The notes below the pieces were generated by a model. The model was not told the origin of the DNA. It worked only from the letters and a program-made list of their open reading frames with translations, and ran no database searches. Position numbers and translations under genes: made by a program. Source: Candidatus Kuenenia stuttgartensis (lineage in GTDB: Bacteria; Planctomycetota; Planctomycetia; Pirellulales; UBA1268). Taken from it: a stretch of 36,007 nt of DNA. Within the stretch, counting starts at the first letter, position 1. Each line of letters opens with the position of its first letter. The stretch lies in NCBI GenBank assembly GCA_945877135.1, contig CAMCQY010000025.1, forward strand, positions 1 to 36,007, read 5' to 3'. Of the stretch, positions 7,492 through 31,634 are shown piece by piece.

Positions 7492-7515
7492 GCAGACCCT
7501 GAGCCGCTGCGGTTC

Positions 7516-7647
7516 GGGGCTGCCCGTGCCCCGTCGCCGGACGTTCACTACGGCCATCCTGGCCTTCGCTCACTCGATGCTGACTGCGCTCCGGCATCCT
7601 GCCTGCGCTGGTCAGCAACGCCGGCTCTCGGGACACGGGCAGCCCCT
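7516..7647 (+). repeat. Structured dispersed element with 13-bp terminal inverted repeats (family 1, copy A)
   Basis: This is a 132-base unit bounded by GGGGCTGCCCGTG and its exact reverse complement CACGGGCAGCCCC. It is nearly identical to copy B (15981-16111), and copy C (24539-24695) is an inverted relative. Internal stems are GGCC-ATCCT-GGCC and TGCTGAC...GTCAGCA. Copies A and C also share flanks outside the terminal repeats (GGTTC on one side, TCAC-GATG on the other), so the true element may be some 15 bases longer. It stands 38 bases upstream of the livK start codon, next to its presumed promoter. No transposase is linked to it. Confidence 0.85.
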
Positions 7648-7683
7648 CACAGATGATTCCTAGTCCCATCCAAGCGTCAAAAG

Positions 7684-7732
7684 GGTCCTGGCACCTTTTT
7701 CCTCCATCCAAGCCCGCAGCGCAAGCAAGGGA
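7684..7732. repeat. Single arm of repeat family 2 with adjacent GGCACC-T5 motif
   Basis: CCCGCAGCGCAAGCAAGGGA (in 7708-7732) is almost identical to the right arm of the repeat after recQ, but no matching left arm is present. It is preceded at 7684-7700 by GGTCCTGGCACCTTTTT, a decayed version of the palindromic motif at 1822. It lies between rlmL (stop at 7760, read leftward) and livK, so it forms part of the rlmL 3' trailer. Together with copy A of family 1 it fills most of the 281-base gap. Confidence 0.6.
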
Positions 7733-7759
7733 ATACGGGCCACCCCATGTGGCGACTTG

Positions 7760-10213
7760 CTACCGTTTCACAAGCCGCCACGCCCTATGAATCCGTTCGT
7801 TCCGGAAGTCCTCGGGAATCGTGCGATTCGTGATCTCGCGGAGGGTGTAGAGGGCCGACAGACGTTCTTCGGCGAGATGAAACCGGCGGAAGTTGGTCGA
7901 AAAATAGACGACGCCTCCGGTCACGAGATTCTTCGCCACCAGTTCCAGGAGTTCGACATGGTCGCGCTCGATATCCCACGGCGTCTCGCTCTTCGCCGAC
8001 CGCGAGTAGGTCGGCGGATCGACCACCACGAGGTCGAACGGCGGCTCGCCACGCTGCGACCGGTGCTCGAGGAAGGCGCGGGCCTCGTCACGCACGATCC
8101 GGTGGCGACCCGCGTCCTTGAAGCCATTCTTCGAGAGGTTCGTCCGCGTCCACTCGAGATAGGTGTTGGAGAGATCGACGCTCACCGTCTCCTTGGCCCC
8201 GCCCGCGGCCGCATAGACGGAGAAACTGCCCGTGTAGCAGAAGAGGTTGAGCATCCGCTTCCCCTCGGCTTCGCCGCGGACCATGGCCCGCGTCTGCCGG
8301 TGATCGAGGAAGAGTCCCGTGTCGAGATAGTCGGAGAGATTGACCTCGAACGAGAGGTCTCCCTCCTTCACGGAGAGCAACGCCTGCCGTTGGTCCACTT
8401 TTTCATACTGCCCACCATCTCGCTGGCGGCGGCGTACCTTCAGGAAGGTCTGCATCGGCGGCACGCCCAGTTCCACTGCCGCCGCCTCGATCATCTTGTC
8501 GAGCCAGACGTCGTGCTCGATGTCGGTGCGTTCGTGCGGCCGCTCATACTCGGCGGCGTGCAGCCAGCCGGCATACCAGTCGATCACCAGCGGGATCTCG
8601 GGGATGTCGCGGTCGTAGACACGAAACGCCTCGATCCCTTGGCGGCGTGCCCACTTGGAGAGGTGTTTGAACCGCTTGGCGAGCCGGCGGCGGAAGTCGC
8701 CAATTTGATCGTCGGTCGTCCGCGCGCGCGAACGGCCGGTGGCCGGCATATCGTGGGCAGCGTCACTCGCGCCGACGGCGCCGGGACGGTGCGGGTTGTC
8801 TCGCGGGGGCAGGATAGCCTCATGCTCGCCATCCTCGCCCCGATCCCGACTTGCGGCGGTAACGCGTTCGCTCGTGGTGGCTGGCCCGCGGCCTTCGACC
8901 TGGGATAATTCGGGGGTGGCTCGCCTTCTGACCTCCACCTCCAGGAGCCGGCATGCGATCGGACCGTTGGAGAGCGGCACGCGATACGTGGGACGCAGGC
9001 CGAGCTGACCTGCAGCAGGCGTGTCGGCCGCGAGAATCGCCGCCCGCCAGCCGCCGCAGTGCTGCACGAGCCAGTCGCCAAACCGCCTGAAGAAGGCCGC
9101 AGACCGAGGGAGCGGCAGCCGCTCGCCATAGGGAGGATTGGTGACCACCAGCCCGCTCTCCCCCGCCGGCCTCGCCTGTTCGAAATGCTTTACGTCGATC
9201 GCGATGCACGATGCCACGCCCGCAGCCTCGGCACAGGCCTTCGCCGCGGCCACGGCATTCGGATCGAGATCGCTGGCCTGGAAGCCTCCGGCCGGTTCCC
9301 GCACGCGGGCCTCGAGCTCCGCCACCAGTCGATCAAAGAGCCCGCGGTCACAGTCGCGAAACCTAAAAAAGCCGTGGGCCTTCCGCCGCGCGCGATACAA
9401 GCCCGGCGCGATGCGTGCCGCGATCGAGGCCGCCTCGATGACGAGCGTGCCGGAGCCGCACATAGGGTCTAACAATAGCCCGCATGTCTCATCATCAACC
9501 GTACGCCCGCATTTCTCATCATCAACCGTACGCTCGCATGTCTCATCATCAACCGTACGCCCGCCGACATGCCACCAGCCCGCGATGCCGAGGATGCCTG
9601 CGGCCAACACTTCTGAGAGCGGCGCATCGACCTCACCCATCCGCCAGCCCCGCTGGTGAAGCGACCGGCCGGCCGCGTCGCGGAATATCGTCGCCGTGTC
9701 GCCCACCAGATGGAGCCCGAGCCGGAGGGTCGCCCCCCGCAGTTGCACGCTCGGCCGCTTGCCGCTCGGCGTGCGAAGCTGGTCCACGATCGCATCCTTG
9801 ACGATCTGCGCCGCATAGAGCGAGTGCGTGAGAAACGTGTCATGAATCGCAGCATCGACCCGGAGCGTGTCGGAGGTTTTTAATTCTTCCGTCCAGTCGA
9901 CCTCCTGCATCGCGCGATAGAGCGAGTCTGGGGAGTCCGCACGAAACCGTCCAAGCGGCTCGAGCACGCGGATCGCCGTCCGACTCTCGAGCACCGCCCG
10001 GTAGAGCGTCTCCTTCTCGGCCCCGGGAGCGGCCGAAAATTCGATCGTCCGCCGACCGATGCGAAGGTCCCGCGCACCGACTCGCTCCAACTCCCGCGCG
10101 AGGATCCATTCGAGACCTTCGAGCGTCCGCGCGGTCATCCGCGGCGGCTCGTCAGGCGACGGTGCCGGCAGCGGCCGGGGCACCGGGGGTACAGCGGGAA
10201 AGGGAGCGGTCAT
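7760..10213 (-). CDS. rlmL: Bifunctional 23S rRNA guanine methyltransferase RlmKL
   Basis: This enzyme modifies 23S rRNA with two SAM-dependent methyltransferase halves (N2 of G2445 by RlmL and N7 of G2069 by RlmK, E. coli numbering). The product is 817 aa from the ATG at 10213; the ORF-track extension overlaps carB and is rejected. A start at 10138 (MTARTLEGLEWIL) would fit the E. coli N-terminus equally well. A THUMP-containing region covers about residues 28-180. The first methyltransferase has LLLDPMCGSGTLVIEAA and catalytic VVTNPPYGERLP (about 247-366). The RlmK half starts near 508 (KRFKHLSKWARRQGIEAFR), with DYLDTGLFLDHR, LNLFCYTGSFSVYAA and VVVDPPTYS. Two oddities are a triple nine-residue repeat (about 218-245) just before motif I and an extra ~65-residue low-complexity linker (about 434-500) containing a dispersed repeat. 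It follows carB by 37 bases. Confidence 0.93.
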   Translation of the reverse strand: MTAPFPAVPPVPRPLPAPSPDEPPRMTARTLEGLEWILARELERVGARDLRIGRRTIEFSAAPGAEKETLYRAVLESRTAIRVLEPLGRFRADSPDSLYRAMQEVDWTEELKTSDTLRVDAAIHDTFLTHSLYAAQIVKDAIVDQLRTPSGKRPSVQLRGATLRLGLHLVGDTATIFRDAAGRSLHQRGWRMGEVDAPLSEVLAAGILGIAGWWHVGGRTVDDETCERTVDDEKCGRTVDDETCGLLLDPMCGSGTLVIEAASIAARIAPGLYRARRKAHGFFRFRDCDRGLFDRLVAELEARVREPAGGFQASDLDPNAVAAAKACAEAAGVASCIAIDVKHFEQARPAGESGLVVTNPPYGERLPLPRSAAFFRRFGDWLVQHCGGWRAAILAADTPAAGQLGLRPTYRVPLSNGPIACRLLEVEVRRRATPELSQVEGRGPATTSERVTAASRDRGEDGEHEAILPPRDNPHRPGAVGASDAAHDMPATGRSRARTTDDQIGDFRRRLAKRFKHLSKWARRQGIEAFRVYDRDIPEIPLVIDWYAGWLHAAEYERPHERTDIEHDVWLDKMIEAAAVELGVPPMQTFLKVRRRQRDGGQYEKVDQRQALLSVKEGDLSFEVNLSDYLDTGLFLDHRQTRAMVRGEAEGKRMLNLFCYTGSFSVYAAAGGAKETVSVDLSNTYLEWTRTNLSKNGFKDAGRHRIVRDEARAFLEHRSQRGEPPFDLVVVDPPTYSRSAKSETPWDIERDHVELLELVAKNLVTGGVVYFSTNFRRFHLAEERLSALYTLREITNRTIPEDFRNERIHRAWRLVKR
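8796..8830. repeat. Dispersed repeat fragment within the rlmL linker (family 3)
   Basis: On the plus strand this reads GTCTCGCGGGGGCAGGATAG followed by CCTCATGCTCGCC. A close relative, GTCTCGTCGCGTGGGCAGGA followed by TAGCCCAATGCTC, lies in the tkt downstream region at 24414-24450. Here the sequence is inside the rlmL frame and encodes part of the extra linker between the two methyltransferase halves (GEHEAILPPRD). Confidence 0.55.
9481..9561. repeat. Three tandem 27-bp repeats inside rlmL
   Basis: Three consecutive 27-base units (9481-9507, 9508-9534, 9535-9561) differ at only two or so positions, with the core CTCATCATCAACCGTACGC. On the coding strand they add nine residues each (GRTVDDETC, ERTVDDEKC, GRTVDDETC). 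The array sits directly before the SAM-binding motif LLLDPMCGSG. The frame is preserved. Confidence 0.95.
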
Positions 10214-14192: not shown

Positions 14193-14225
14193 GTCCGTCG
14201 CGCAACCATCAGCCCGCTCTCATTC

Positions 14226-14308
14226 ACGCCCGCAGCACAAGCAAGGGGAAACGCGTGGCCTCACGCTTCGCGTCGTGGATCCCCTCGCTGGCGGGTTGGG
14301 CTTGCAAG
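14226..14308. repeat. Family 2 repeat arms in outward order
   Basis: The arm CGCCCGCAGCACAAGCAAGG (14226-14250) is followed 30 bases later by TCCCCTCGCTGGCGGGTTGG (14280-14308). These are the same two arms as in the repeat after recQ but in reversed order, so the inverted pair still forms a stem. The unit sits between the convergent ahpD-like and DUF971 genes and fills most of that gap. Confidence 0.6.
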
Positions 14309-15947: not shown

Positions 15948-15980
15948 CCATGAACAGCATGAGCACGGGCTACGAGGGCC

Positions 15981-16111
15981 GGGGCTGCCCGTGCCCCGTC
16001 GCCGGACGTTCGCTACGGGCATCCTGCCCTTCGCTCACTCGATGCTGACTACGCTCCGGCATCCTGCCTGCGCTTGTCAGCAACGCCGGCTCTCGGGGCA
16101 CGGGCAGCCCC
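15981..16111 (+). repeat. Structured dispersed element with terminal inverted repeats (family 1, copy B)
   Basis: This 131-base copy has the same 13-base termini as copy A (GGGGCTGCCCGTG and CACGGGCAGCCCC) and differs from it at only a handful of positions. The internal hairpin is GGGC-ATCCT-GCCC, where copy A has GGCC-ATCCT-GGCC, so both arms have changed together. It lies between the PEGA lipoprotein gene and the paaK-like gene, both read leftward. The 90 bases from 16112 to the lipoprotein stop hold nothing else I can name. Confidence 0.85.
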
Positions 16112-16201
16112 TCACGCGTTTTGCAAAGCAGATGTCGGGGTAGCCGGGATCGGCGGACTCATTCCTTCTGCCGTCCCGGCGGTGCGAGTCGGTTGACTCC
16201 C

Positions 16202-24450: not shown

Positions 24451-24538
24451 AGCTTTCGCCGACCCCTTCGCCTACGTCTTCTGGTTTACTCGGGCATGGC
24501 TACAGCTATCGTGCATGCGTTCGAGCCCGCATCCGTGA

Positions 24539-24695
24539 GGGGCTGCCCACGTCTCGAGAGCCGGCGTTGCTGACCAGCGCAGGCAGGATGCCGGAGCGCA
24601 GTCAGCATCGAGTGAGCGAAGGGCAGCGGGCACCGATCCGTCTAAGCGGATTGGTCGACGAAGCGAACGTCCGGCGACGGGGCGTGGGCAGCCCC
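24539..24695 (-). repeat. Structured dispersed element (family 1, copy C, inverted and longer)
   Basis: This 157-base copy reads in the opposite orientation to A and B. Its termini are GGGGCTGCCCACG and CGTGGGCAGCCCC, so two positions differ from A/B in both arms and pairing is kept. The middle hairpin of A/B is replaced by a larger one, ACCGATCCG-TCTAAG-CGGATTGGT (nine pairs including one wobble). The TGCTGAC/GTCAGCA stem is conserved. The element lies between two convergent genes (tkt and the anti-sigma gene). Confidence 0.85.
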
Positions 24696-24711
24696 GAACC
24701 GTCGCCATACC

Positions 24712-31300: not shown

Positions 31301-31634
31301 TGATCCGCACGCCGCCAGTGAGATGCCAGACGTCGTACGAGCCTTCCGTCCACCGCGCGGCCTGCGTGGCGTTGACCGTGACGTTCTCGCGCGGATCGGC
31401 CGACGGCACCTCGATCCTTCCCGCCTCGGCGATGGCCGCGGCCAGCCCGCGGGCAGGCAGCGAGGCAAGCGCGCCTGCGGTGGCCGTCTCCTTGAGCGGT
31501 TGCGCGTTGAGCGGTTGCGCGTTGAGCGGTTGCGCGTTGAGCGGCTGCACGGCAGCGGGAGGCTGCGCCGCAGCCGACCGTGTGCCCATCATCGTCACAA
31601 CGGCCGTCAGCAGGCATGTCACCAGCACCCGCAC
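28362..31634 (-). CDS. lptD: LptD-like outer-membrane lipid-assembly protein
   Basis: The product is 1090 aa from the GTG at 31634. The ORF track begins far upstream inside the divergent gene and is rejected, and an in-frame GTG at 31730 is another option. A signal peptide (VRVLVTCLLTAVVTMMGTRS AAA) is followed by a four-fold QPLNA-type repeat. Two LptA/OstA-like stretches are readable (HLTGGVRITQGTTEAVAHEA, then YMEGNVVFRQGQRVVEAVSM). Then come ITSRGNTLTLGGVPVLWWPV, the position of the LptD GVPV-x-x-x-P motif, and ~550 residues of aromatic-rich alternating strands typical of an outer-membrane barrel. The protein should insert lipopolysaccharide-like lipid into the outer leaflet. It is larger than E. 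coli LptD (784 aa). No LptE is seen nearby. Confidence 0.75.
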   Translation of the reverse strand: MRVLVTCLLTAVVTMMGTRSAAAQPPAAVQPLNAQPLNAQPLNAQPLKETATAGALASLPARGLAAAIAEAGRIEVPSADPRENVTVNATQAARWTEGSYDVWHLTGGVRITQGTTEAVAHEAVVWIEQEPAPSIDGDAVDGEEMPPPAVRSMLVRMAGNVSVRSGAAGADAAATTVRGPRWTGRFWMHRDPTLEFASVVPNAGMPPIYDAPADRVVPVAYNADADAATEEPIQRAQFSEFGAAPVPQVNTATTARRLRAFPRSSVPLNIRWFPSPAGNEWVAVITSGVNLVVDGVDPAGPLDISADRLVIWTRGQSQPDLEGNAAQAGDVPLELYMEGNVVFRQGQRVVEAVSMFYDVPRSSGVITGATVLTPVDNYSGVVRLRADVLRQVDRSRFVAQQTGLTSSRLGVPSWEFRSRELEFTDEQVPLAGPGGQRAIDPVTGEPAVEHQQFITSRGNTLTLGGVPVLWWPVLATNAKKPTFYINNAQIKNDRIFGTQLLTSWDAFQVFGWRRPPDGVDWDFDVDYLSLRGPGGGTSLLYNRPDFLGFGGPASGDLDAWFIGDVGQDNLGLYRRDFTYPGYPNRTFRGRSFWRHRQDIGGSTESFFGGWQARGTAGWISDMNFLEEYYEAEWEEGYEQRTWLDLRRPIENRELRLLTSVRVNPFFTQSEWWPRLDHYWLGQPLLQDSLTWYQHSGVSYVRQNLPQTPTAGQGSSIWTTLPYENNVIGERLATRQEIDLPFQAGVVKIVPYALGELAHWGQDITQSPIDRAYGQVGVRSTLPMWTSDDSVESQLWNVHGLAHKVVWEAEFSYANSTQSITQFPLYDQIDDDTINQYRRNIPYWDYGAIPGQATPLGSPFVFGPSNKYDPRTYAVRRGMGGWVTGPTEIANDLTAFRLGARQRWQTKRGPMGNRRIIDWIVFDVDGELFPTTSQNFGQTLGLWQYDFRWHVGDRTTLLSTADVDFFTGGQQLYTFGALLNRTPRGSFYIGFNEFGGPIDASVLTGSYTYRMSPKWASSFGTALNLKGMNIGQNFQLVRIGESFLMTFGFNVDYSRNNVGFTFNLEPRFLSRTQFASRTGLDIPMAGAYGLE
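31494..31553. repeat. 15-bp tandem repeat in the lptD-like gene
   Basis: GAGCGGTTGCGCGTT occurs three times in a row (31494-31538), followed by a diverged fourth unit. On the coding strand it gives QPLNA repeats just after the predicted signal-peptide cleavage site. It preserves the frame and may vary in copy number between strains. Confidence 0.9.

Follow-up and report, generated by a model that had tools for sequence, protein, structure and literature searches.

Copies of the element in the window

The window, which is the whole stretch of DNA analysed (36,007 nucleotides), was found to contain three copies of a structured element, A, B and C, whose ends, internal stems and paired differences agreed with the earlier note. 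Copy A (GGGGCTGCCCGTG..CACGGGCAGCCCC) was located at 7516-7646, with its start as claimed and its end one base before the claimed 7647, whereas copy B (15981-16111) and copy C (24539-24695, in the opposite orientation to A and B) were found as claimed. The repeat shared by A and B was 136 nt long with 96% identity. The copy ends contained a paired arm difference, GTG/CAC versus ACG/CGT, followed by a paired change in the internal stem from GGCC/GGCC in copy A (7552-7564) to GGGC/GCCC in copy B (16017-16029). The stem TGCTGAC/GTCAGCA was also present. The features were as follows, where the folded strand is the one identified in a later section.

7505..7659, folded (RNA-like) strand minus: copy A with conserved flanks (covariance-model match 7511-7653 minus; flank conservation; A-C versus G-U asymmetry)
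7516..7646, minus: copy A core, inside its 13-bp inverted ends; outer stem ~18 bp
7552..7564, minus: hairpin 1 of copy A, GGCCAGGATGGCC on the folded strand, loop AGGAU (sequence; loop conservation)
7592..7603, minus: hairpin 2 of copy A, GGCAGGATGCCG on the folded strand, loop AGGAU (sequence; loop conservation)
15970..16124, folded strand minus: copy B with conserved flanks (covariance-model match 15976-16118 minus)
16017..16029, minus: hairpin 1 of copy B, GGGCAGGATGCCC on the folded strand (sequence)
16057..16068, minus: hairpin 2 of copy B, GGCAGGATGCCG on the folded strand (sequence)
24528..24706, folded strand plus: copy C with conserved flanks
24582..24592, plus: hairpin 2 of copy C, GGCAGGATGCC (sequence)
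24620..24665, plus: module CACCGATCCG..CGGATTGGTCGACG replacing hairpin 1 of copy C, apical loop without GGA

The end GGGGCTGCCC was not rare by itself in the window (10 matches versus 7.7 expected). Beyond the 13-bp ends, the conserved unit continued leftward for ~11 nt (GGC..CGGTTC) and rightward for ~13 nt (TCACGGAT.C). On both strands the fold lay far below those of shuffled sequences, with z values of about -6.0 to -6.5. Copy C was longer than A and B because its hairpin 1 was replaced by another module (CGTCGACCAATCCG..CGGATCGGTGCCCG). This module occupied hairpin 1 in 4 of the 60 copies of the genome (copy C, L040, L050 and L067) and hairpin 2 once (L076); a similar module was present in hairpin 2 of L207. 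The hairpins are therefore swapped as units.

A third short repeat (CAAGCCCGCAGCGCAAGCAAGGG..), besides the element and a second family described below, was found at 1947-1982, 7709-7744 and 14225-14260 of the window. Hairpins related to it that resembled terminators, the folded strand carrying a T-run, frequently lay ~25 nt from the element. Tandem repeats of 27 bp and 15 bp were present at 9478-9564 and 31492-31551, respectively, and the 27-bp repeat lay inside a called gene.

Copy number, distribution and genomic position

Three copies were too few for a claim of covariation, and more copies were therefore collected. A looser pattern (3 mismatches) was used for the 3.9-Mb genome, which was found to contain 60 copies of ~145 nt, 28 forward and 32 reverse, a larger observation than the three copies first claimed; a reversed pattern in the same genome gave 0 matches. 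Copies on scanned contigs were selected by a pattern touching hairpin 2, and those of other genera by whole-element similarity.

The element was present in 51 of 99 relatives, all 51 within the same GTDB family. Of 147 genomes from the order, the covariance model built here matched 21; every one of these belonged to that family, and the genomes outside it gave no match. The public records containing the element were lake planctomycete assemblies, and the element is a clean family-specific marker for these planctomycetes. The records L145, L147, L148, L159, L176, L180 and L217 (CAMDFJ01, CAMBSN01, CAMDDA01) were titled Candidatus Kuenenia stuttgartiensis and yet contained the family-specific repeat; these titles are probably wrong.

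Gene calls made with a simple codon-usage script placed 196 copies in intergenic gaps versus 3 inside called genes. Convergent gene pairs flanked 84 of the 196 and divergent pairs 17, and the convergent copies lay close to gene 3' ends; the element avoids promoter regions, as REPs do. In tandem gene contexts the folded strand was sense in 59 and antisense in 36 (p=0.023), a weak sense bias, and about a quarter of the 196 copies (36 antisense and 17 divergent) were without a co-directional upstream gene. No conserved promoter was found upstream of the folded strand in the aligned copies.

The excess of convergent contexts near gene 3' ends and the terminator-like hairpins adjoining many copies would suit a hairpin transcribed at 3' ends that would terminate or protect messages of both strands, the classic role of REPs, with no specific loop protein. 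Such a role leaves unexplained both the strand bias described below and the swapping of stems around fixed CA(N)GGAUG loops, and we consider it quite unlikely.

Conservation of the paired structure

A total of 191 distinct copies were aligned by sequence alone, without the use of structure. The outer stem was paired in 92.7% of cells versus 87.6% when the 3' arms were shuffled among copies, followed by hairpin 1 with 94.1% versus 81.5% and the tip of hairpin 2 with 98.8% versus 93.8%. On the folded strand of 40 diverse copies, 98.6% of cells were paired versus 91.2% when shuffled and at most 43.0% when slid, and two-sided changes were found in 21 of 41 pairs (102 cells), a result equalled in 0 of 500 shuffles. 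The covariation thus exceeded both the shuffled and the slid controls.

Among orthologous copies in sister species, 12 of the 55 changed pairs were two-sided Watson-Crick swaps, and the one-sided steps on the folded strand led 17 times to G-U versus 3 times to A-C. These copies diverged by 4.9% within the element versus 9.2% in the flanks. The pair-keeping changes and the low divergence indicate that resident copies, and not only an active lineage, keep the fold, with a possible contribution from gene conversion among copies. Other local hairpins, seen by eye at the two ends between the flank GGCGAC and the inner GTCGCC, were rejected, as the flank letters varied without matching inner changes.

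The selection on a folded form that the earlier note had proposed from three copies was upheld far beyond them by the covariation in 40 and 191 copies, the orthologous pairs and the strand asymmetry given next, and folding of the element is well supported.

The strand that folds

In the orientation read in the earlier note (copies A and B on the forward strand), the non-Watson-Crick pairs were A·C in 417 cases versus G·U in 50, a difference of ~8-fold. The ratio was 104:10 within the genus, 173:24 on the scanned contigs and 140:16 in other genera, and the pairs leaning to A·C versus those not leaning were 21:5, 27:5 and 30:6, respectively. Since an A·C pair reads as G·U on the complementary strand, selection for folding acts on the reverse complement of that orientation.

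The unpaired bases of the folded strand were found to contain 43% A and 42% G, with 84% purine. Purine-rich unpaired bases are typical of structured RNA. In the unpaired columns G>A did not outnumber C>T in the same way, although only two such columns are G, and strand-biased mutation is therefore not an obvious cause of the asymmetry. A replication-strand insertion bias is unlikely, as copies on one contig were found in both orientations. Taken alone, the strand bias would also fit single-stranded DNA.

Among the possibilities raised at first, that of a transcribed RNA was favoured in the form of a strand-specific RNA-like fold, to which the G-U asymmetry, the purine-rich unpaired bases and the conserved loops with exchangeable stems all point. 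Even without CsrA, the A·C versus G·U asymmetry offers a simple general test for the fold-selected strand of a bacterial repeat.

Conserved loops and the candidate CsrA link

Both apical hairpins on the folded strand were found to end in CAGGAUG or, one base longer, CANGGAUG. The GGA nucleotides were kept in 177/191 and 187/191 loops of the two hairpins, and the middle base was invariant; a purely structural GNA loop needs no fixed middle base. At least one GGA hairpin was present in 254 of 261 copies and two in 195. The stems around the loops were freely exchanged (AGGGCAGGATGCCCG, AGGCCAGGATGGCCG, AGGACAGGATGTCCG, AGCCCAGGATGGGCG, AGAACAGGATGTTCG), and the loop-adjacent pair in other genera was CG in 44 cases and GC in 37.

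In CsrB, the hairpin loops repeat the element CAGGA(U/A/C)G, and SELEX with CsrA gave the consensus RUACARGGAUGU, with 4-bp stems favoured (PMC7652899); the stems of the present element are more stable than these. ANGGAX hexaloops are bound best by RsmE, and AGGAX loops lacking the N more weakly (PMC4005645). Two traits of CsrB/Rsm-type RNAs, GGA in the A(N)GGAX context within apical loops and a host CsrA with RNA-binding residues, were found for the element.

The csrA gene was present in 60 of 60 family genomes, with six profile matches in this genome. It was equally present in family members without the element and did not track it. Four own CsrA proteins begin with MLVLSR and retain L4 and R44, and one own CsrA protein was aligned to a solved CsrA. 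Own csrA genes were located at G000:C51, C33 (two) and C1, two of them near-identical and two divergent from these. In the relative G049 (contig C88, 49269-49424 and 50194-50341), a csrA gene lay less than 1 kb from a copy of the element, likely by chance, given the copy density. No Rfam family matched the element at the gathering threshold, and up to E 10 only unrelated chance matches, with no CsrB/Rsm family, were found. A search of the open-access literature found no dispersed CsrA-binding repeats and no such repeats in Planctomycetes. On the motif, CsrA would be the best candidate partner of the predicted loop sites.

A second repeat family with similar loops

Among intergenic hairpins outside the element, GGA/TCC was the commonest class of loop trinucleotide (24% versus 9% in coding hairpins), in large part because of a second repeat, CCAAG-stem-CAGGATG-stem-CGTG. 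It had 28 matches in this genome; in four element-rich relatives from two other genera the number was 4 to 43, and most element-poor family members contained only chance-like matches. This modular intergenic repeat ran from CCAAG through a stem containing a bulged G to CAGGATG or CACGATG, and then through a stem to CGTG; its stems varied with compensation, and CAGCACCAGC and a GGAG hairpin commonly lay ahead of it. An array of five CAGGATG hairpins was located at G000:C52 (L028 1712-1965), with a sub-threshold match to RsmW (E 1.2). The loop of the second family was often CACGATG, which is not a CsrA motif, and the CsrA reading is therefore weaker for this family.

A distributed CsrA network of repetitive DNA in this planctomycete family, in which at least two unrelated repeat families (the element and the CCAAG-hairpin-CGTG repeat) are shaped to display A(N)GGAU loops, is a doubtful proposal. 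If it held, dozens of scattered transcripts would titrate or recruit several CsrA paralogs and replace a few CsrB-like sRNA genes.

Transposase, loss of copies and exchange of arms

The own genome was found to contain one weak Y1 fragment, and Y1_Tnp did not track the element across 60 genomes: G024, G031, G042, G046 and G052 contained element copies and no Y1, whereas G005 contained four Y1 and no copy. The Y1 loci examined were without an element copy. The literal GTAG tetranucleotide was absent from the element ends, where the outward tags were GTTC and GTGA. The search for a REP-associated tyrosine transposase thus gave no RAYT association by distribution or neighbourhood, and the RAYT hypothesis is rejected on these two grounds; the proposed hairpin substrate of a REP transposase acting in trans is not supported. 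As for the REP/BIME-like option, the anatomy and distribution are REP/BIME (REPIN)-like, and the likeness of the element to the RAYT-linked REPINs lies in these traits.

A broader form of this idea, a REPIN/BIME-like fold of single-stranded DNA that a RAYT or another HUH transposase moves in trans, would derive the strand bias from single-stranded transposition and would not take the loops as protein sites. Two inverted palindromic ends with outward tags, many intergenic copies, a long hairpin and the compensatory changes reported for REPINs (PMC3116915) agree with it, and single-stranded DNA tolerates G-T wobble too. The Y1 results and the missing GTAG tag tell against it, as do the occurrence of both copy orientations on single contigs (C41, C25, C26) and a loop conservation exceeding its prediction, and we regard it as unlikely.

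No target-site duplication was found, as 231 copies contained no direct repeat beyond chance, and no longer element with the same ends or autonomous partner was found among the own-genome matches (240 contigs, ~94% complete). A MITE, mobilised by a double-strand DNA transposase of the classical kind that recognises the 13-bp inverted ends, would account for the terminal inverted repeats and the dispersed copies of uniform length. With these two absences, and with structure conserved far inward of the ends, it has little credibility.

The sister species shared most compared sites, and turnover is therefore slow. At site A, two relatives contained a scar and a third, more distant relative contained a full element with an insertion in hairpin 2; this suggests a deletion between GCCCC direct repeats. 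Solo scars of the form GGTTCGGGGCTGCCCATGCCCCTCACGG were found at L245 ~2047, L248 ~3770, L254 and L255. These solo sites were rejected as the ancestral target, being rare (four in five genomes) and with the distant relative having the full element at site A.

Mirror-image 4-nt flanks were present in 29 of 231 copies versus 5.9 expected, and the left inner arm of L020 and L039 was of the right-arm type; arm-to-arm exchange therefore occurs. These observations and the deletion scars between GCCCC repeats favour a functionless origin of the arm complementarity by templated arm-to-arm correction (quasi-palindrome correction or conversion). Such correction is strand-neutral and can yield neither the A-C:G-U ratio of 417:50 and the one-sided steps (G-U 17 versus A-C 3) nor the invariant unpaired loops, which leaves this explanation very unlikely. 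Conversion between arms, named in the earlier note as its refuting case, was thus found to occur, but strand asymmetry and invariant loops do not follow from it.

Interpretation

The element is a real, widespread, strand-specific folded repeat with REPIN-like anatomy and distribution and CsrB-like loops. Our preferred reading, to which we give a probability of roughly 45%, is that of a dispersed REPIN-like repeat with CsrA-type sites displayed on its folded transcript. The unit of selection would be one folded strand, most probably a transcript, that is the reverse complement of the orientation first read. Its 18-bp outer stem and inner stem would support two apical hairpins, and the A(N)GGAU loops of these match those bound by CsrA/RsmA-family proteins. 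The transcribed copies, mostly downstream of genes, would bind the host CsrA and by this may either titrate it in the manner of CsrB/RsmZ or mark the 3' region of the message. Copies would be spread, or at least homogenised; they are lost by deletion between GCCCC repeats and exchange their arms. The copy number, the confinement to one family, the covariation, the strand bias, the kept loops, the csrA gene of all family genomes and the scars are observed, whereas we infer that the strand is transcribed, that CsrA binds and is titrated, and how copies spread. The replacement module of hairpin 1 without a GGA loop, in copy C and a few other copies, stands against the CsrA reading. So do the missing conserved promoter, the weak sense bias, the copies that lie antisense or between divergent genes, the presence of csrA in family members without the element, the CACGATG loops of the second family, the stability of the stems, the selection of scanned copies by a pattern touching hairpin 2 and the missing CsrB/Rsm match in Rfam.

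Should the folded strand prove to be transcribed and bound, this REP-like repeat would serve as a spread-out regulatory RNA controlling a global RNA-binding protein, and repeat expansion would be linked to CsrA regulation in uncultured lake bacteria.

Comparison with known systems

MITEs resemble the element in being short, non-coding and dispersed with terminal inverted repeats, whereas the element contained a branched conserved fold, with no target duplication and no autonomous partner found among the own-genome matches. The GTAG- and CGTC-tagged REP superfamilies are tagged palindromes, often dimers, with Planctomycetes among the reported phyla (PMC3733652). In contrast, the element ends in GTTC and GTGA and has a ~145-nt unit with a branched interior; CGTC REPs also occur without a transposase, but their loops and tails differ from those of the element (PMC3733652).

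The REPINs and BIMEs of Pseudomonas and enterobacteria share with the element the inverted palindromic ends that form one long hairpin, the many extragenic copies and the compensatory changes (PMC3116915). The element differs in the absence of a RAYT link and a GTAG tag, in its strand-specific G-U pattern, in two internal hairpins with fixed GGA loops and in its confinement to one planctomycete family.

Like CsrB/CsrC and RsmX/Y/Z, the element has short hairpins with CA(N)GGA(U)G in their apical loops, at least two to a molecule (PMC7652899, PMC4005645), and csrA is present in its hosts. Those RNAs are encoded by one to few genes, whereas the element, known from sequence alone, has a long closing stem, no recognised promoter or terminator and no Rfam match, and is present in dozens of dispersed copies.
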